In this document: positions 26,984-41,010 of the stretch, in pieces
Position numbering within the stretch: the first letter of the stretch is position 1
Layout: each line of letters opens with the position of its first letter
Assembly (NCBI GenBank): GCA_026418295.1
Contig: JAOABP010000001.1
Location: 248,001 to 312,000 of the forward strand
From: Caldifarciminota bacterium
GTDB taxonomy: Bacteria > Hydrothermota > Tepidihabitantia > Tepidihabitantales > Tepidihabitantaceae
DNA length: 64,000 nt
Reading direction: 5' to 3'
Program-made: the position numbers and the translations under genes
Notes under the pieces: generated by a model
The model's database searches: none
The model's input: the letters and a program-made list of their open reading frames with translations, nothing else
Told to the model about the DNA's origin: nothing

Positions 26984-27475
26984 CTATCCTCCTTTTATTC
27001 TTAATCTTGTCAAAACATCTTCCACCGACGCCACTTTTTCCACCCCTTCAATCTCCCAAGTCTTCAACCCGATTACCCTCTTTCCCATCTTCAAAGCAAA
27101 ACCGATCTCCGAAAGTGTACCGTAGGACCCGCCGATTGCAATCAGGATATCAGCAGTCCTGATAATTATCAGATTGCGCGCCTCGCCGAAACCGGTAGCG
27201 ATCGGCAGTGCCACAAACTCATTTGCCTGCGACCGCTCGGAACCGGGCATGATGCCGATTGTCAACCCGCCCTGTTCCTGAGCGCCCTGACATACCGCCC
27301 GCATCACACCTCCCATACCGCCGCAGACCACGACCGCACCGACTGCTGCCAGTCCCCGCCCCAGCGCCCGCGCCTCTGCCGCCAGTTCGGCGTCACATTC
27401 GCCGGCACCAATCACCCCGACGAACAGCCTATTTCTCAGCGAATAAACTGATCGGCTGAAACCGGTTGACATCAA
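26984..27475 (-). CDS. TIGR00725/LOG-like Rossmann protein
   Basis: A 163-residue SLOG-fold protein. Visible motifs are FVGVIGAGECDAEL, VVVCGGMGGVMRAVCQGA, EARNLIIIRTADILIAIGG and YGTLSEIGFALKMGKRVIGL, matching the family that includes cytokinin riboside-5'-monophosphate phosphoribohydrolases (LOG). LOG enzymes release an adenine-type base and ribose 5-phosphate from a nucleoside monophosphate. The gene overlaps the end of the adenine deaminase gene by 47 nt, and hpt lies just beyond, so a role in purine base release is an attractive inference. Activity of the TIGR00725 branch is not established. Confidence 0.85.
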   Translation of the reverse strand: MMSTGFSRSVYSLRNRLFVGVIGAGECDAELAAEARALGRGLAAVGAVVVCGGMGGVMRAVCQGAQEQGGLTIGIMPGSERSQANEFVALPIATGFGEARNLIIIRTADILIAIGGSYGTLSEIGFALKMGKRVIGLKTWEIEGVEKVASVEDVLTRLRIKGG

Positions 27476-29186
27476 TCAGCCCCCGGTCGGTTATTTTCAG
27501 TTCGGGAATTACCGGCAGCGAAAGAAATGACAGGGTCATGAATGGATTGTCCAGCCGGCAGCCCCAGTTCCGTGCCTTTGCCAAAAGTACCTTCAACCGG
27601 GAAACAACCTCCTGGGCAGACCGGTCTGACATCAGACCGGCGATCGGCAGGGGCAGTTCTGCTGCCACTTTGCCGTCGGCAACCGCCACATAACCACCAC
27701 CCATCCTTACCAGTGCACGTGCTGCGACCAGCATATCCCGGTCATTGGTGCCGACAATAATCATATTGTGAGAATCATGCGCCACGGTGGTCCCGAGCGC
27801 ACCCTTCTTCAGACCAAAACCGGCAACCAGCCCTTTACCCATTCTGCCCGTCCCCCGGTGCCTTTCAATTACCACGATCTTCAGCAGATCCCGCTCCGGA
27901 TCTGCTGTCACCAGTCCGTTTCTGACCGGTGCCCGCTGGACATGATGTTCAGTTAAAATCTGTCCGGGCACAACCCGGATCACATTACACAGCTCCCCTT
28001 CAGCCTTGATTACAAAATCTCCCCGTGCAAGCCCCTTCACCCGCACGGTGTTCATCACCTTCCGGTCGCGGACCTCCGGCAGCCTCTCCAGTAATCGACC
28101 CTCCCGGGCAACCGGTCTGCCATTCTTTATCACCAGTTCCACATTCATATCGCTCAGACTTCCCAGCACTACCAGGTCTGCCCGCAATCCCGGTGCCACC
28201 GCACCCCGGTCATAAAGACGGAAATACTCTGCAGGATTGAGCGTCACCATCTGAATCGCCGCTGCCGGATGCATTCCGGTGCTGACCACCCGGCGCAATA
28301 CCGCATTCAGATGGCCCTCTTTGAGCAGATCCTGCGGGTCACGGTCATCGGACACAAGGCAGAACCGGCGCAGATTGAAATCATTCACCACCGGCAGAAT
28401 CGATGCCAAGTTCCGGGCAGCCGAACCTTCCCGGATAAATACCCTCATCCCTGCCCGCAACCTCTCCCGTACCTCCTGCACCCCGACCGATTCGTGGTCC
28501 GAGCCGATTCCCGCGCCGGCATATGCCTGCAGCAGAAGTCCGGTCAGCCCCGGACAGTGGCCATCGATCACCTTTTCCGCTATTCTTGCCACCACTAGCT
28601 TCGCCCGAACCTCAGGATCACCCCAGATTACACCCGGATAGTTCATCAACTCGGCAAGTCCGAGCACCTCCGGCATCTTAAGCAGCCGTTCAATCTCCCT
28701 GACCCCCAGCTTTGCTCCCGATGTCTCCATCCGCGTCGCCGGAACACAGGATGGCACCATGATATAGATGTCAACAGGAAGACCCCGGCTCGCCCGGATG
28801 ACATATTCAACACCGCTGACTCCCAGAACATTCGCCAGCTCATGAGGATCAGCAATTACCGTGGTTGTGCCATTAACTAGGCACAACCGGACAAACTCAG
28901 TCACCGATAATAACGAACTTTCAATATGGATATGCCCCTCAATAAAACCAGGTGCGACATAGCAACCCTGGATGTCAATCACACTGTCTGCCCGCTCGTA
29001 ACCTTCCCCCACACCGGCAATCATTCCGTTCTTGATGACTACATCTGCCCGGCGGACCTCACCGGTAAACACATCCACCACCTGACCACCGCGCAACAAA
29101 AGGTCTGCAGGTGCTTCGCCCCGGGCAACCGCAAGCAAATCCACTGACACTGGAGAGTTACGAGTTCTGCTTCTCTTCATCGTCAC
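27429..29186 (-). CDS. ade: Adenine deaminase
   Basis: A 585-residue amidohydrolase of the bacterial AdeC type, converting adenine to hypoxanthine and ammonia. The metal site GFIEGHIHIESSLLSVTEF is intact, followed by TTTVIADPHELANVLG and GHCPGLTG. The C-terminal adenine-deaminase domain has FGLKKGALGTTVAHDSHN. The GTG start at 29186 overlaps the hpt stop as GTGA; an in-frame ATG lies two codons on (29180). Confidence 0.95.
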   Translation of the reverse strand: MTMKRSRTRNSPVSVDLLAVARGEAPADLLLRGGQVVDVFTGEVRRADVVIKNGMIAGVGEGYERADSVIDIQGCYVAPGFIEGHIHIESSLLSVTEFVRLCLVNGTTTVIADPHELANVLGVSGVEYVIRASRGLPVDIYIMVPSCVPATRMETSGAKLGVREIERLLKMPEVLGLAELMNYPGVIWGDPEVRAKLVVARIAEKVIDGHCPGLTGLLLQAYAGAGIGSDHESVGVQEVRERLRAGMRVFIREGSAARNLASILPVVNDFNLRRFCLVSDDRDPQDLLKEGHLNAVLRRVVSTGMHPAAAIQMVTLNPAEYFRLYDRGAVAPGLRADLVVLGSLSDMNVELVIKNGRPVAREGRLLERLPEVRDRKVMNTVRVKGLARGDFVIKAEGELCNVIRVVPGQILTEHHVQRAPVRNGLVTADPERDLLKIVVIERHRGTGRMGKGLVAGFGLKKGALGTTVAHDSHNMIIVGTNDRDMLVAARALVRMGGGYVAVADGKVAAELPLPIAGLMSDRSAQEVVSRLKVLLAKARNWGCRLDNPFMTLSFLSLPVIPELKITDRGLIDVNRFQPISLFAEK

Positions 29187-29737
29187 TTACCCGGCACTTC
29201 AATATACCCGATATACGGCAGATTACGAAAGGCTTCAGCAAAATCTGCCCCGTAACCGACCACAAACTTATCCGGCACGGTAAACCCGAGATAGTCCGGC
29301 TTGATCTCCACCTGCCGGCGCGCCGGCTTGTCCATCAGCACACACAACTTCAGACTCTTCGGCTTGCGCAGCTCCAGATGCCTCATAATGTATCTTAATG
29401 TCAATCCCGAATCCAGAATATCCTCCACCACCAGCACATCCCTGCCTTCCAGCGGACATTTCAGGTCCATGACAATCTTTACAATCCCCGAACTCTTTGT
29501 GCTCGCCCCATAACTGGAAACGGTGAGGAAATCGATGTAAACCGGCACGGTCAGCTGCCGCACCAGATCCGCCAGAAAAATCCAGGAGCCCTTGAGAATA
29601 CCGACAACCAGCGGAGTCCTGCCCGCATAATCGGCAGAAATCTGCTCCGCCAGCTCCCGTACCCGCTTGGCGACTTCATCAGCAGAGATGAGAACCCTTA
29701 CCCGGGTCTGATCCAGTGCCGGTGTATTGTTGGCCAT
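29183..29737 (-). CDS. hpt: Hypoxanthine phosphoribosyltransferase
   Basis: Hpt makes IMP from hypoxanthine and PRPP. The PRPP-binding motif is VLVVEDILDSGLTLRYI, and the N-terminal LVVGILKGSWIFLADLVR and late DFAEAFRNLPYIG are typical. About 184 residues. The start may be ATG at 29737 or TTG at 29743. It begins only about 20 nt after tRNA-Pro in the same direction with no Shine-Dalgarno, so processing of the tRNA 3' end would leave a nearly leaderless mRNA. Confidence 0.94.
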   Translation of the reverse strand: MANNTPALDQTRVRVLISADEVAKRVRELAEQISADYAGRTPLVVGILKGSWIFLADLVRQLTVPVYIDFLTVSSYGASTKSSGIVKIVMDLKCPLEGRDVLVVEDILDSGLTLRYIMRHLELRKPKSLKLCVLMDKPARRQVEIKPDYLGFTVPDKFVVGYGADFAEAFRNLPYIGYIEVPGK

Positions 29738-29759
29738 TTCCAAGCGGTAAATTGAAAAT

Positions 29760-29833
29760 CGGGGCGACTGGATTTGAACCAGCGACCTCTTGGTCCCGAA
29801 CCAAGCGCGCTAAACCAGCTGCGCTACGCCCCG
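29760..29833 (-). tRNA. tRNA-Pro (anticodon CGG)
   Basis: A cloverleaf of 74 nt. A 7-bp acceptor (CGGGGCG with CGCCCCG) and D-arm GCGC/GCGC are present. The anticodon arm is CTTGG-TTCGGGA-CCAAG (anticodon CGG), and the T-arm has GTTCAAATC. No CCA is encoded. It is the first gene of the hpt/ade operon. Confidence 0.95.
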
Positions 29834-30553: not shown

Positions 30554-30588
30554 ATTAATTTACCCTGTGACAGCACCGGAAAAATTGC

Positions 30589-30616
30589 TTGACATGGAAA
30601 TCAACTGTTGTATTTA
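30589..30616 (+). promoter_or_regulatory. Promoter of the candidate small RNA
   Basis: TTGACA (30589-30594), 16-nt spacer, TATTTA (30611-30616). The predicted start near 30622-30623 is exactly where a 9-bp closing stem begins. Confidence 0.5.
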
Positions 30617-30621
30617 TTTTC

Positions 30622-30693
30622 TGCTGCTGGTCGGGCGATTGCCCTGGTTGGCGTATCAACCATCGTGGCATGGGCCCTCCAGCGGCATTTTTA
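30622..30693 (+). ncRNA. Candidate structured small RNA or leader element
   Basis: The element is about 70 nt. Its closing stem pairs 30622-30630 (TGCTGCTGG) with 30679-30687 (CCAGCGGCA): 9 bp with one G-U. Inside, GGGC-gatt-GCCC (30633-30644) and TGGTTG-gcgtat-CAACCA (30645-30662) form two hairpins; GGGCCC at 30672-30677 could pair alternatively with 30633-30636. A T-rich tract (TTTTTATT) follows the closing stem like a terminator. A promoter ends 5 nt upstream. The next gene (30736) has its own promoter, so this may be an independent sRNA or an attenuator. It matches no RNA family I know. Confidence 0.4.
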
Positions 30694-30700
30694 TTATGAT

Positions 30701-30728
30701 TTGACCTGCCGCGGGCAGGTGCTAAAAT
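30701..30728 (+). promoter_or_regulatory. Promoter with embedded palindrome for the MPN-like gene
   Basis: TTGACC (30701-30706), 16-nt spacer, TAAAAT (30723-30728), then 7 nt to ATG at 30736 (leaderless). A perfect inverted repeat ACCTGCC-gcg-GGCAGGT (30704-30720) fills the spacer and would fit an operator bound by a dimeric regulator. Confidence 0.55.
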
Positions 30729-30735
30729 AAAGTTA

Positions 30736-31311
30736 ATGTCAATTCATCCGCTCGTGCGCTTCCGGGCACCAATTCTGTTTGAAGAATCAGCGGTCCGCGA
30801 ACTGTGCAGTTTTGCCCGCCGGGGGTATGAAACTAAGTTCAAACGGGAAACATTCGGCTTTCTCTTCGGCACTATCAACCAAGAACATCGGCTGGTTGTC
30901 CGCCGGGCATGCTACTATCGGGGCGGAGAAAAGAGCCGGACCGGCATCACTTTCCGCGACTGGGCGATGATCCGGCGGGTGATCAGGCGGCGCCGGGAAC
31001 TCAGCTCCCGATTGCACCTCCGCTATCTGGGCAACTTCCACTCACATGTTGAAATCGCCGGCGAGGTGTTCAAGGGACTCTCCCCCGAAGACAGGGAATC
31101 ATTTCTCTACGACCCGATGGCGATCATTGAGACCATCGTCTTCATCTGGGCAGGACCTTCCAAACCCAACCGCAGTATCGCGGGCACAATTGTCGGATTT
31201 GAACCCCGGACCGGCTACAACTACCGGATTCGGGTGTATGCCAAACGGCGCAGCGGCATCCGCCAAGTTCGGGCTAAGGTCATTCCCTCCGGAGTGGTTG
31301 TGATATATTAA
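30736..31311 (+). CDS. MPN/JAMM (Mov34) domain-like protein
   Basis: A 191-residue protein. A JAMM-type metal site can be traced: Glu38 in KRETFGFLFG, His102-x-His104 in YLGNFHSHVE, then Ser116 and Asp119 in KGLSPEDRESF. The gap between the second His and Ser is 11 residues rather than the usual seven, so the assignment is probable but atypical. JAMM proteins are zinc isopeptidases or peptidases that act on ubiquitin-like or sulphur-carrier proteins; no such partner is visible here. The C-terminus is basic. It is expressed from a leaderless promoter with a palindrome between -35 and -10. Confidence 0.62.
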   Translation: MSIHPLVRFRAPILFEESAVRELCSFARRGYETKFKRETFGFLFGTINQEHRLVVRRACYYRGGEKSRTGITFRDWAMIRRVIRRRRELSSRLHLRYLGNFHSHVEIAGEVFKGLSPEDRESFLYDPMAIIETIVFIWAGPSKPNRSIAGTIVGFEPRTGYNYRIRVYAKRRSGIRQVRAKVIPSGVVVIY

Positions 31312-34685: not shown

Positions 34686-36031
34686 AACCGTCTCATCACC
34701 CGCCCCTGCTGTTGCTTTTGCTCGGAGTTGCCACCGCCGTTTCCCCGCTTTTCTCCCTGCCGGTAACGCGCGACTCACTGAACAACGGTCTGATAATCAT
34801 CACCTTTGAGGACCACCGCCTGCCGATCGTGGACCTAGCGCTGATCTGTCGTTCCGGTGCTGTGTTCGAACCGCTCCCGAAGGCGGGCACCGCCAGCCTC
34901 TGCGCTCAGATGCTTCTCCGCGGCACAAAAAACTTCACTGCCGACTCGCTCGCCGCTCTGCTTGACTTCCTTGGTGCCAGCTACTCGGCAGATGCCGACT
35001 TTGACCACAGCCTGGTTCAGTTCCGGCTCCTGTCCAAGGACCTTGGAACCGGACTGGACATCCTTGCCGATATCGTCCTCAACCCCGCATTTCCGGAACC
35101 GGAGTTCCGGCTCGTCCGGGAGGAACAGCTCACCGCTGCCCGCCGTGCTTGGGACAACCCGGGCTCACTGGTAACGCTGGAATTCGACCGCATGCTCTTC
35201 GGCGACCACCGCTACAGCCTGCCGGTGCGGGGCGATACCGGCACCATTCCCCAGATTACCCTTGCCGATCTGCACCAGTTCCACGCCACCCACTTCGTGC
35301 CCAACAACTGCTTCATTGTGGCGGTCGGCGACATCAGCCCTGGAGCGCTAAAAGAAGAAATTACCCGCCGGTTCGCCGGCTGGCAGCCCGGACCGGTGCC
35401 CGCGCCCGAACCGCCTGCACTCAAACCACCGGAAAAACTGCGGGTTAAACTGATCACCCGGCCGGACATGAACCAGACCTATATCCAGTTCGGCCATCTT
35501 GGCATCTCGGTCCGCGATCCGGATCTGATTCCGGTCCGGCTCATGTCCTACATCCTAGGAGGTCCGCCGCTTTCCTCCCGGCTCGGCTTGGCGGTCCGGG
35601 AATACGCCGGGCTTGCCTATGATGTCCGCTGCTGGTTTGACCGCCGGCTCCTGACCGGCGCCTTCCGGGCAACGGTCCAGACCTCAAAACCCCAGATTGC
35701 AATTGAGAAGATGTTTGCCGAAATTGACCGGATGGCACAGACCGGTGCCACCCCACGGGAACTGCAGAAAGCGAAAAACTACTTCACCGGCTCATTTCCG
35801 CTCACCTACTCTGCCAACTCCGGCAAGCTTGACCAGCTGATCAGCTTTGAACTCTACGGCTACGGCATGGACTGGTTCACCCGCTTCCCGGTACTGGTCC
35901 GCACCACCACGCTTGAACAGATTAACACCGCTGCCCGCAACCGACTCTTTCCGGGCAGATACCTGATGGTCATCCTAGGCAACATCACCCGCGACCAGCT
36001 CAACCTCCCCGATGCAGAGTGGATTGAATAA
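34682..36031 (+). CDS. M16 family peptidase homologue without the zinc motif
   Basis: A 449-residue protein with signal peptide (HHPPLLLLLLGVATAVSPLF) and the M16 fold. The HxxEH position reads TASLCAQML, so it lacks the zinc ligands. It keeps the C-terminal Arg/Tyr-bearing segment GGPPLSSRLGLAVREYAGLAY, used by the non-catalytic M16 subunit to hold substrate. ATGA overlap with the preceding active M16 gene supports a heterodimer. It ends convergent with the propeller gene, 40 nt away. Confidence 0.92.
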   Translation: MKPSHHPPLLLLLLGVATAVSPLFSLPVTRDSLNNGLIIITFEDHRLPIVDLALICRSGAVFEPLPKAGTASLCAQMLLRGTKNFTADSLAALLDFLGASYSADADFDHSLVQFRLLSKDLGTGLDILADIVLNPAFPEPEFRLVREEQLTAARRAWDNPGSLVTLEFDRMLFGDHRYSLPVRGDTGTIPQITLADLHQFHATHFVPNNCFIVAVGDISPGALKEEITRRFAGWQPGPVPAPEPPALKPPEKLRVKLITRPDMNQTYIQFGHLGISVRDPDLIPVRLMSYILGGPPLSSRLGLAVREYAGLAYDVRCWFDRRLLTGAFRATVQTSKPQIAIEKMFAEIDRMAQTGATPRELQKAKNYFTGSFPLTYSANSGKLDQLISFELYGYGMDWFTRFPVLVRTTTLEQINTAARNRLFPGRYLMVILGNITRDQLNLPDAEWIE

Positions 36032-39763: not shown

Positions 39764-39811
39764 TTCCGCTCCGCTTTGACTGCCAACGGACAGGCAGGTC
39801 TGTAAACAGAG

Positions 39812-39841
39812 ACCGGCTCCGGTCGGTCTGCCGGAGCCGGT
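39812..39841 (-). terminator. Hairpin after the substrate-binding protein gene
   Basis: A perfect 11-bp stem, ACCGGCTCCGG (39812-39822) with CCGGAGCCGGT (39831-39841), has an 8-nt loop and lies 30 nt past the minus-strand stop at 39871. The T-tract on the minus side is weak (TCTCTGTTT), so termination strength is uncertain. Confidence 0.55.
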
Positions 39842-39870
39842 TCGGTTGCTGGTAACAGTCTGCCTTTTAC

Positions 39871-41010
39871 TTACGGGGCAAACGAGGTCACAAACCGTTG
39901 ACCGGTCTCGGTGTACTGGATGATCGTCGCCAGTTTGATCGGGTTGCCGAACTCGTCAAAGGTGATCGTGCCCGAGACACAGGGGTAGTCCCGGATCTTG
40001 CTCAGCGCCTCCCGAATCTCATCCGGCTTGGCATTGGGCGCATTCTTGAGTGCGGCGATCAGCAGAAGCCCCGCATCATACCCGAGAGTGGCAAAGGCAT
40101 CCGGCTTCTGGCCGTAGCGCGCCTGATACTTGTTCACCCAGTTCTGAACCTCAGGCCTGGGATCATCAGCCGAGTAGTGGTTGACAAAGTAGCTGCCCGC
40201 CACCTCCTTGCCCGCAATCTCCAGCATCGCCGGTGAATCCCAGCCATCACCGCCGAGGAAGCGAGTGACCAGCCCGAGCTGATATGCCTGCTTGACGATC
40301 AGACCGACCTTGTTGTAGTAGTCAGGGAGAAACACGAGGTCCGGCTTCTGCTGTTTGATTTTGGTCAAAAGAGCCGAGAAGTCGACATCATCCTTCTGAT
40401 AGGACTCATAGGCCACCACCTTTCCGCCCGCCGCCTCAAAGAAGCGCTTGAAGTAGTCCGCAAGCCCGCGGGAGTAATCATTGCCGACATCGAACATTAT
40501 GGCAGCGGTCTTGGCCTTGAGACTGTCAATTGCAAACCGTGCCGCCACCACCCCCTGGAAGGAGTCGGTGAAGCAGGCACGGAAGATGAACTCCTTGTGC
40601 CTGCCGTCATCGGTAACCGTTACCTTAGGATTGGTCGAAGTGGGGGTGATCATCGGAATCCGCGCCACCTGGCACTTGTCCGCCAGCGGCAAGGAGCACT
40701 TGGTGGACACCGAACCGATGATCGCCACGACACCGTCCAGCTCAATCAGCTTGCCACCGGCATTTGCCGCCTCAGTCGGGTCGTTCTTATCATCAGAAAT
40801 AAACAGCTTGATCTGTTTGCCGTTGACACCGCCGGCACGGTTTGCCTCCTCAATTGCGAGCATGATGCCGTTGACTGTTGATTCGCCGAAGGTCTTGACA
40901 TCACCGGTGAGCGGAGCGACCACGCCCACCTTGATCACATTGCCCGGACCGCAGGAAAGAATCGCCAGTCCGAGCCCGAGAGTTAAAATCAGGACTGTCA
41001 GATTACGCAT
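39871..41010 (-). CDS. Branched-chain amino acid-type ABC transporter substrate-binding lipoprotein
   Basis: A 379-residue periplasmic-binding protein of the LivJ/receptor-family-ligand-binding type, with lipoprotein signal (LGLGLAILSC). The family opening VIKVGVVAPLTGDVKTFGES and the segment GVVAIIGSVSTKCSLPLAD are clear. The ligand is probably an amino acid or similar small molecule. No permease or ATPase genes are beside it, so it is either an orphan partner or serves components elsewhere. GGAGGAG precedes ATG. It is the last gene of the ptsH-to-tgt run, followed by a hairpin. Confidence 0.9.
   Translation of the reverse strand: MRNLTVLILTLGLGLAILSCGPGNVIKVGVVAPLTGDVKTFGESTVNGIMLAIEEANRAGGVNGKQIKLFISDDKNDPTEAANAGGKLIELDGVVAIIGSVSTKCSLPLADKCQVARIPMITPTSTNPKVTVTDDGRHKEFIFRACFTDSFQGVVAARFAIDSLKAKTAAIMFDVGNDYSRGLADYFKRFFEAAGGKVVAYESYQKDDVDFSALLTKIKQQKPDLVFLPDYYNKVGLIVKQAYQLGLVTRFLGGDGWDSPAMLEIAGKEVAGSYFVNHYSADDPRPEVQNWVNKYQARYGQKPDAFATLGYDAGLLLIAALKNAPNAKPDEIREALSKIRDYPCVSGTITFDEFGNPIKLATIIQYTETGQRFVTSFAP

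Follow-up and report, generated by a model that had tools for sequence, protein, structure and literature searches.

The window, by which we mean the whole 64,000-nt stretch of DNA that was analysed, carries a predicted small RNA gene on its forward strand, between pcm and a gene for a JAB/MPN-like protein. The body of the RNA lies at 30622–30687 (+), with a predicted 5′ end at about 30622–30623, and was delimited as a single rod-like hairpin on the basis of its folding z-score, its invariant helices and its covariance-model homologues (six genomes in all, the genome of the window, G000, included). On the minus strand, pcm is adjoined by genes for adenine deaminase and hypoxanthine phosphoribosyltransferase and by tRNA-Pro(CGG) (27429–29833), and the order deaminase-hpt-pcm is retained in two of the relatives compared (G003 and G009). 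The JAB/MPN-like gene, which stands outside the RNA unit, occupies 30736–31311 (+) with its ATG at 30736; it was assigned by a Prok-JAB match with an E-value of 0.0013, which is below the curated cut-off, and the protein is conserved in much of the family (50–95% identity).

The promoter of the small RNA consists of a TTGACA -35 box (30589–30594, +) and, after a spacer of 16 nt, the hexamer TATTTA (30611–30616), which forms part of the -10 region TATTTATTT (30611–30619, +). These are the elements named in a preliminary description of this DNA made from the sequence alone, and the comparison with relatives bore them out: CTTGAC and TATNTATTT are invariant in all six genomes, and the spacing from TTGAC(A/T) to TATNTA is 16–17 nt in each of them, the relocated copy of G013 included. 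As would be expected of a stand-alone RNA gene, the -35 and -10 elements are thus conserved along with the RNA itself. TATTTA is a weak -10 sequence, with three of the six consensus bases, and was not called by the promoter scanner. Directly before the -35 box lies an A/T-rich segment (30579–30588, +) that could act as an UP element, with A/T runs at the matching place in the alignments of all six homologues. The pattern CTTGAC-N-TATTTATTT has one other exact instance in G000 and in G001, in both cases ahead of a protein gene with an apparently leaderless mRNA, its GTG being 6 nt downstream of TATTTA. By this spacing, the 5′ end of the small RNA would fall at 30622–30623, at the base of its stem. 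The same match also led us to reject a promoter-based regulon, as the gene behind the only other exact occurrence of the promoter is an ordinary protein gene, apparently leaderless, and no similar RNA is present there.

At the other end, a TTTTT tract (30688–30692, +) follows directly behind the closing stem, where the preliminary description had placed a T-rich end, and a T-rich tract is kept in 6/6 genomes while the flank beyond it diverges. At the level of sequence, this combination of a stable hairpin and a T-rich tract, found in every one of the six, is the predicted intrinsic terminator of the small RNA.

The segment 30618–30700 folds with a minimum free energy of −39.1 kcal/mol, compared with a mean of −25.3 kcal/mol for shuffled versions (z = −4.40; 0 of 200 shuffles as stable). 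Sampling both strands of the window at every third position gave 1275 terminator-like 66-mers, those with five or more T among the next 8 bases, and the RNA 66-mer, at −38.3 kcal/mol, was the most stable of them. The next most stable were found at 35428 to ~35355 (−; −36.3 kcal/mol) and at 39799–39872 (+; −35.8 kcal/mol). Read from its base, the predicted rod begins with a closing stem of 9 bp, formed by TGCTGCTGG (30622–30630, +) and CCAGCGGCA (30679–30687, +) and including one U-G pair, continues through a UC/U internal loop into a second helix made of GGGC (30633–30636, +) and GCCC (30674–30677, +), and then passes a 4x4 or 3x3 internal loop and a (U)GCC/GGC(A) helix before it ends in an apical GGUUG/CAACC hairpin. 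The latter corresponds to TGGTTG...CAACC(A) in the DNA (30646–30661, +), which encloses a variable loop and whose GGTTG/CAACC pairing is kept in all six genomes. The 9-bp stem that had been proposed from the letters was therefore recovered in the fold, as was its start at the predicted transcription start, since position 30622 lies about 6–7 nt past the promoter. The claim that this stem encloses two hairpins stood only in part: TGGTTG/CAACCA is indeed the apical hairpin, whereas GGGC/GCCC lies within the closing stem, below the apex, and forms no second hairpin, so that the helices are stacked and the molecule is better described as one rod interrupted by internal loops.

Families of this kind are ordinarily discovered through comparative searches for candidate structured RNAs. 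A DNA search of relatives returned one high-scoring copy of the element in each of five genomes (G001, G002, G003, G009, and G013), which brings the species with the RNA to six, namely that of the window, two further ones from its genus and three from a sister genus, and these are all the species of the two genera that were compared; the whole comparison hence rests on six sequences, of which five are distinct, from two genera of one family. The covariance model built for the RNA (R1) recovered the same six genomes at 91–98 bits, and no convincing further homologue was obtained with it in searches that covered the class (65 genomes), the phylum (147) and, with laxer filters, the family (18). 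The best extra match (G011, 25.4 bits) lies inside a frame resembling a methyltransferase gene and keeps the closing stem only, and the others, for instance in G063, G003 (C1:37878) and G014, score no better than chance. The exact core pattern was also searched over the GTDB r220 contigs, where it occurred on the G013 contig (CAKZPX010000071.1, from a MAG of an uncultured bacterium) and on two others; these two are unrelated, with chance scores under the model, and one of them apparently falls in a dehydrogenase-like gene. Neither the viral contigs, searched with the core pattern, nor the remainder of the window genome yielded a copy.

The RNA is on average 0.88 identical between the two genera, the promoter 0.69, the tail 0.66, and the flanks 0.47–0.50. 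Four-fold sites of the adjacent JAB/MPN-like gene are identical at 0.33–0.55 (between the genera and against G002), which indicates that neutral sites are near saturation. Within the RNA, the closing, second and GCC/GGC helices show no substitution at any of their 32 positions in the six genomes, and the differences are confined to the apical part and the internal loops. Because none of the 16 outer and middle pairs varies, none shows a compensatory change, and covariation of these helices yields no signal in either direction; the only two-sided change, C-G vs. U-A, is in one apical pair and is weak evidence. The search for relatives that had been proposed along with the preliminary description was consequently answered in two ways: the segment, its promoter and its tail are conserved in five relatives, but the closing stem, being invariant, offers no compensatory changes, and a two-sided change is seen in one apical pair only. 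The case for the predicted RNA structure is instead made by the folding energy, the invariant complementarity, the location of the changes outside the main helices, and a hairpin followed by a T-tract in one orientation.

In line with the preliminary description, the element matches no known RNA family: no Rfam 15 family reached its gathering score at the locus, none appeared up to an E-value of 5 in 30560–30740, and the copy of G013 gave chance-level Rfam matches only. Two structured RNAs can be set aside individually. Like 6S RNA (RF00013), the element is rod-like with internal bulges, but it measures 66 nt instead of ~170–190 nt, has no RF00013 match at its locus, and in G000, G001, and G002 coexists with 6S genes located elsewhere. 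With the bacterial small SRP RNA (RF00169) it shares a hairpin shape, a length below 100 nt and conserved internal loops; the domain IV motif is absent from it, however, and each of the six genomes has its RF00169 gene at another locus. A small peptide was also rejected, as two genomes have an element of 66 nt and the other four one of 65 nt, stops occur in most frames, and no reading frame is conserved across this 1-nt difference. A literature search on small RNAs of the lineage, made under its presumed phylum name, found nothing. The best reading is that the element represents a new, lineage-specific family of self-terminating structured small RNAs, of a familiar kind and present, within the data searched, in two genera of an uncultured lineage. 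As to 6S RNA itself, matches above the cut-off were obtained in the genus of the window (G000:C8:137128–137295, L074, and L075), while the three genomes of the sister genus gave none at E ≤ 1, where this RNA may have diverged or been lost.

Taken as a whole, the evidence is best explained, with a modest balance of probability in its favour, by an independent, stable non-coding RNA of ~70 nt that terminates its own synthesis, acts in trans, and is recognised by a protein more probably than it works by base-pairing. The housekeeping RNA polymerase would start where the closing stem begins (~30622–30623), copy one rod-like hairpin, and stop at the T-tract directly behind it, so that the entire RNA would serve as its own intrinsic terminator. 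With a blunt 5′ end and a U-tailed 3′ end, the product would probably be long-lived and may act in trans, a protein reading its folded shape and the RNA serving as a scaffold or decoy. The hairpin loop is the usual place of a base-pairing seed, and here it is the loop that varies, while the paired strands and most positions of the internal loops stay constant, which favours protein recognition over a seed. Recognition of the structured RNA by a protein is nevertheless advanced as a tentative mode of action, and somewhat more tentative still is the specific picture of a lineage-specific family of protein-bound rods that act as a miniature global regulator or scaffold, with both strands of the helices conserved base by base.

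The alternative that survives best is a base-pairing regulatory small RNA, a free-standing transcript that opens and pairs either through CCUCC with Shine-Dalgarno sequences or through its loop with mRNAs. Most stand-alone bacterial small RNAs of this size with terminator tails act by base-pairing, which makes this the common mode on general grounds, and the present element resembles them in being an intergenic gene with a sigma-70-type promoter, a short structured product and a terminator hairpin with a U tail. It also contains an invariant C-rich GCCCUCC, whose anti-Shine-Dalgarno-like CCUCC could become available for base-pairing were the rod to open, and these genomes do have ribosome-binding sites of the AAGGAGG type, as observed downstream of the 6S genes. 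On the other hand, the predicted fold leaves just one bulged U of CCUCC unpaired, the apical loop differs between the genera, and nearly the whole RNA is one rod doubling as terminator, with no evident single-stranded seed. It further departs from typical stand-alone small RNAs in that Hfq and ProQ were not detected with Pfam models in any of the six genomes that encode it (G000, G001, G002, G003, G009, and G013, each at least 90% complete), so that any chaperone would be another protein. On these points we consider base-pairing unlikely, though less so than the other alternatives.

A structured 5′ UTR of the JAB/MPN-like gene, i.e., a cis-acting leader or attenuator that terminates transcription unless a signal is met, was suggested by the position of the RNA directly upstream of that gene in five of the six genomes (G000, G001, G002, G003, and G009). 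On the other side the neighbour differs in G002, where a gene for a repeat-type secreted protein replaces pcm. Against a leader stands the gene's own promoter shortly after the hairpin: the separate downstream promoter that had been claimed is present as TTGACC-16-TAAAAT (30701–30728, +), with equivalent sites in G002, G003, and G009, and the mRNA of the gene is apparently leaderless. Nor do the folds point to an alternative antiterminator pairing. The decisive observation comes from G013, in which promoter, rod and T-tract stand together as a complete unit with a SIMPL-domain gene on one side and a class V aminotransferase gene on the other, and in which the JAB-like gene has a leaderless-type promoter of its own, at a site equivalent to that of the window, and no copy of the RNA upstream. 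Where the aminotransferase gene occurs in the other genomes (four of them), no copy of the RNA precedes it. The RNA has therefore moved together with its signals, and intact, a finding that speaks against a role as leader or attenuator of the JAB-like gene and largely refutes this possibility: association with the gene is not constant, co-transcription with it is contradicted by the separate promoter, and conservation of the element is independent of its neighbour. Accordingly, we regard a cis-acting leader as very unlikely and are highly confident that the RNA is encoded by an independent gene. The preliminary view of a self-contained element of ~70 nt is in this way placed on firmer ground than it originally had, as the copy of G013 stands alone at another locus.

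A constraint at the DNA level (a protein-binding inverted repeat, a recombination site or the end of a mobile element that merely resembles an RNA) was likewise considered, because the helix arms are invariant in sequence beyond what pairing alone would demand and the element has changed location once, in G013. The invariant helices could equally be compatible with such a constraint. However, there is a single copy per genome, conservation of the promoter and T-tract is limited to one orientation, asymmetric features (internal loops, U-G pair) are retained, and neither repeats nor a transposase adjoin the element, all of which renders this explanation improbable as well. A plain intrinsic terminator or a chance intergenic hairpin is the least probable reading: although a hairpin is followed by a T-tract, 66 nt at 88% identity amid saturated surroundings would be unexpected for a terminator, pcm is divergent upstream in the window and leaves nothing to terminate except the transcript of the element's own promoter, and a chance origin is refuted by the fold z-score, the homologues, the identity contrast and the four-fold sites.

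The independent small RNA thus favoured would add a well-supported new family in a part of the bacterial tree whose small RNAs are hardly charted, and its invariant helices, together with the lack of detectable Hfq and ProQ, make it a concrete object for finding the protein that reads structured small RNAs there. As a separate observation, leaderless-looking mRNAs, with a sigma-70-like -10 element ending 6–8 nt before ATG or GTG, were encountered at 30701–30740 of the window (the JAB-like gene) and at L105:1501–1545 (the gene G000:C10:69053).
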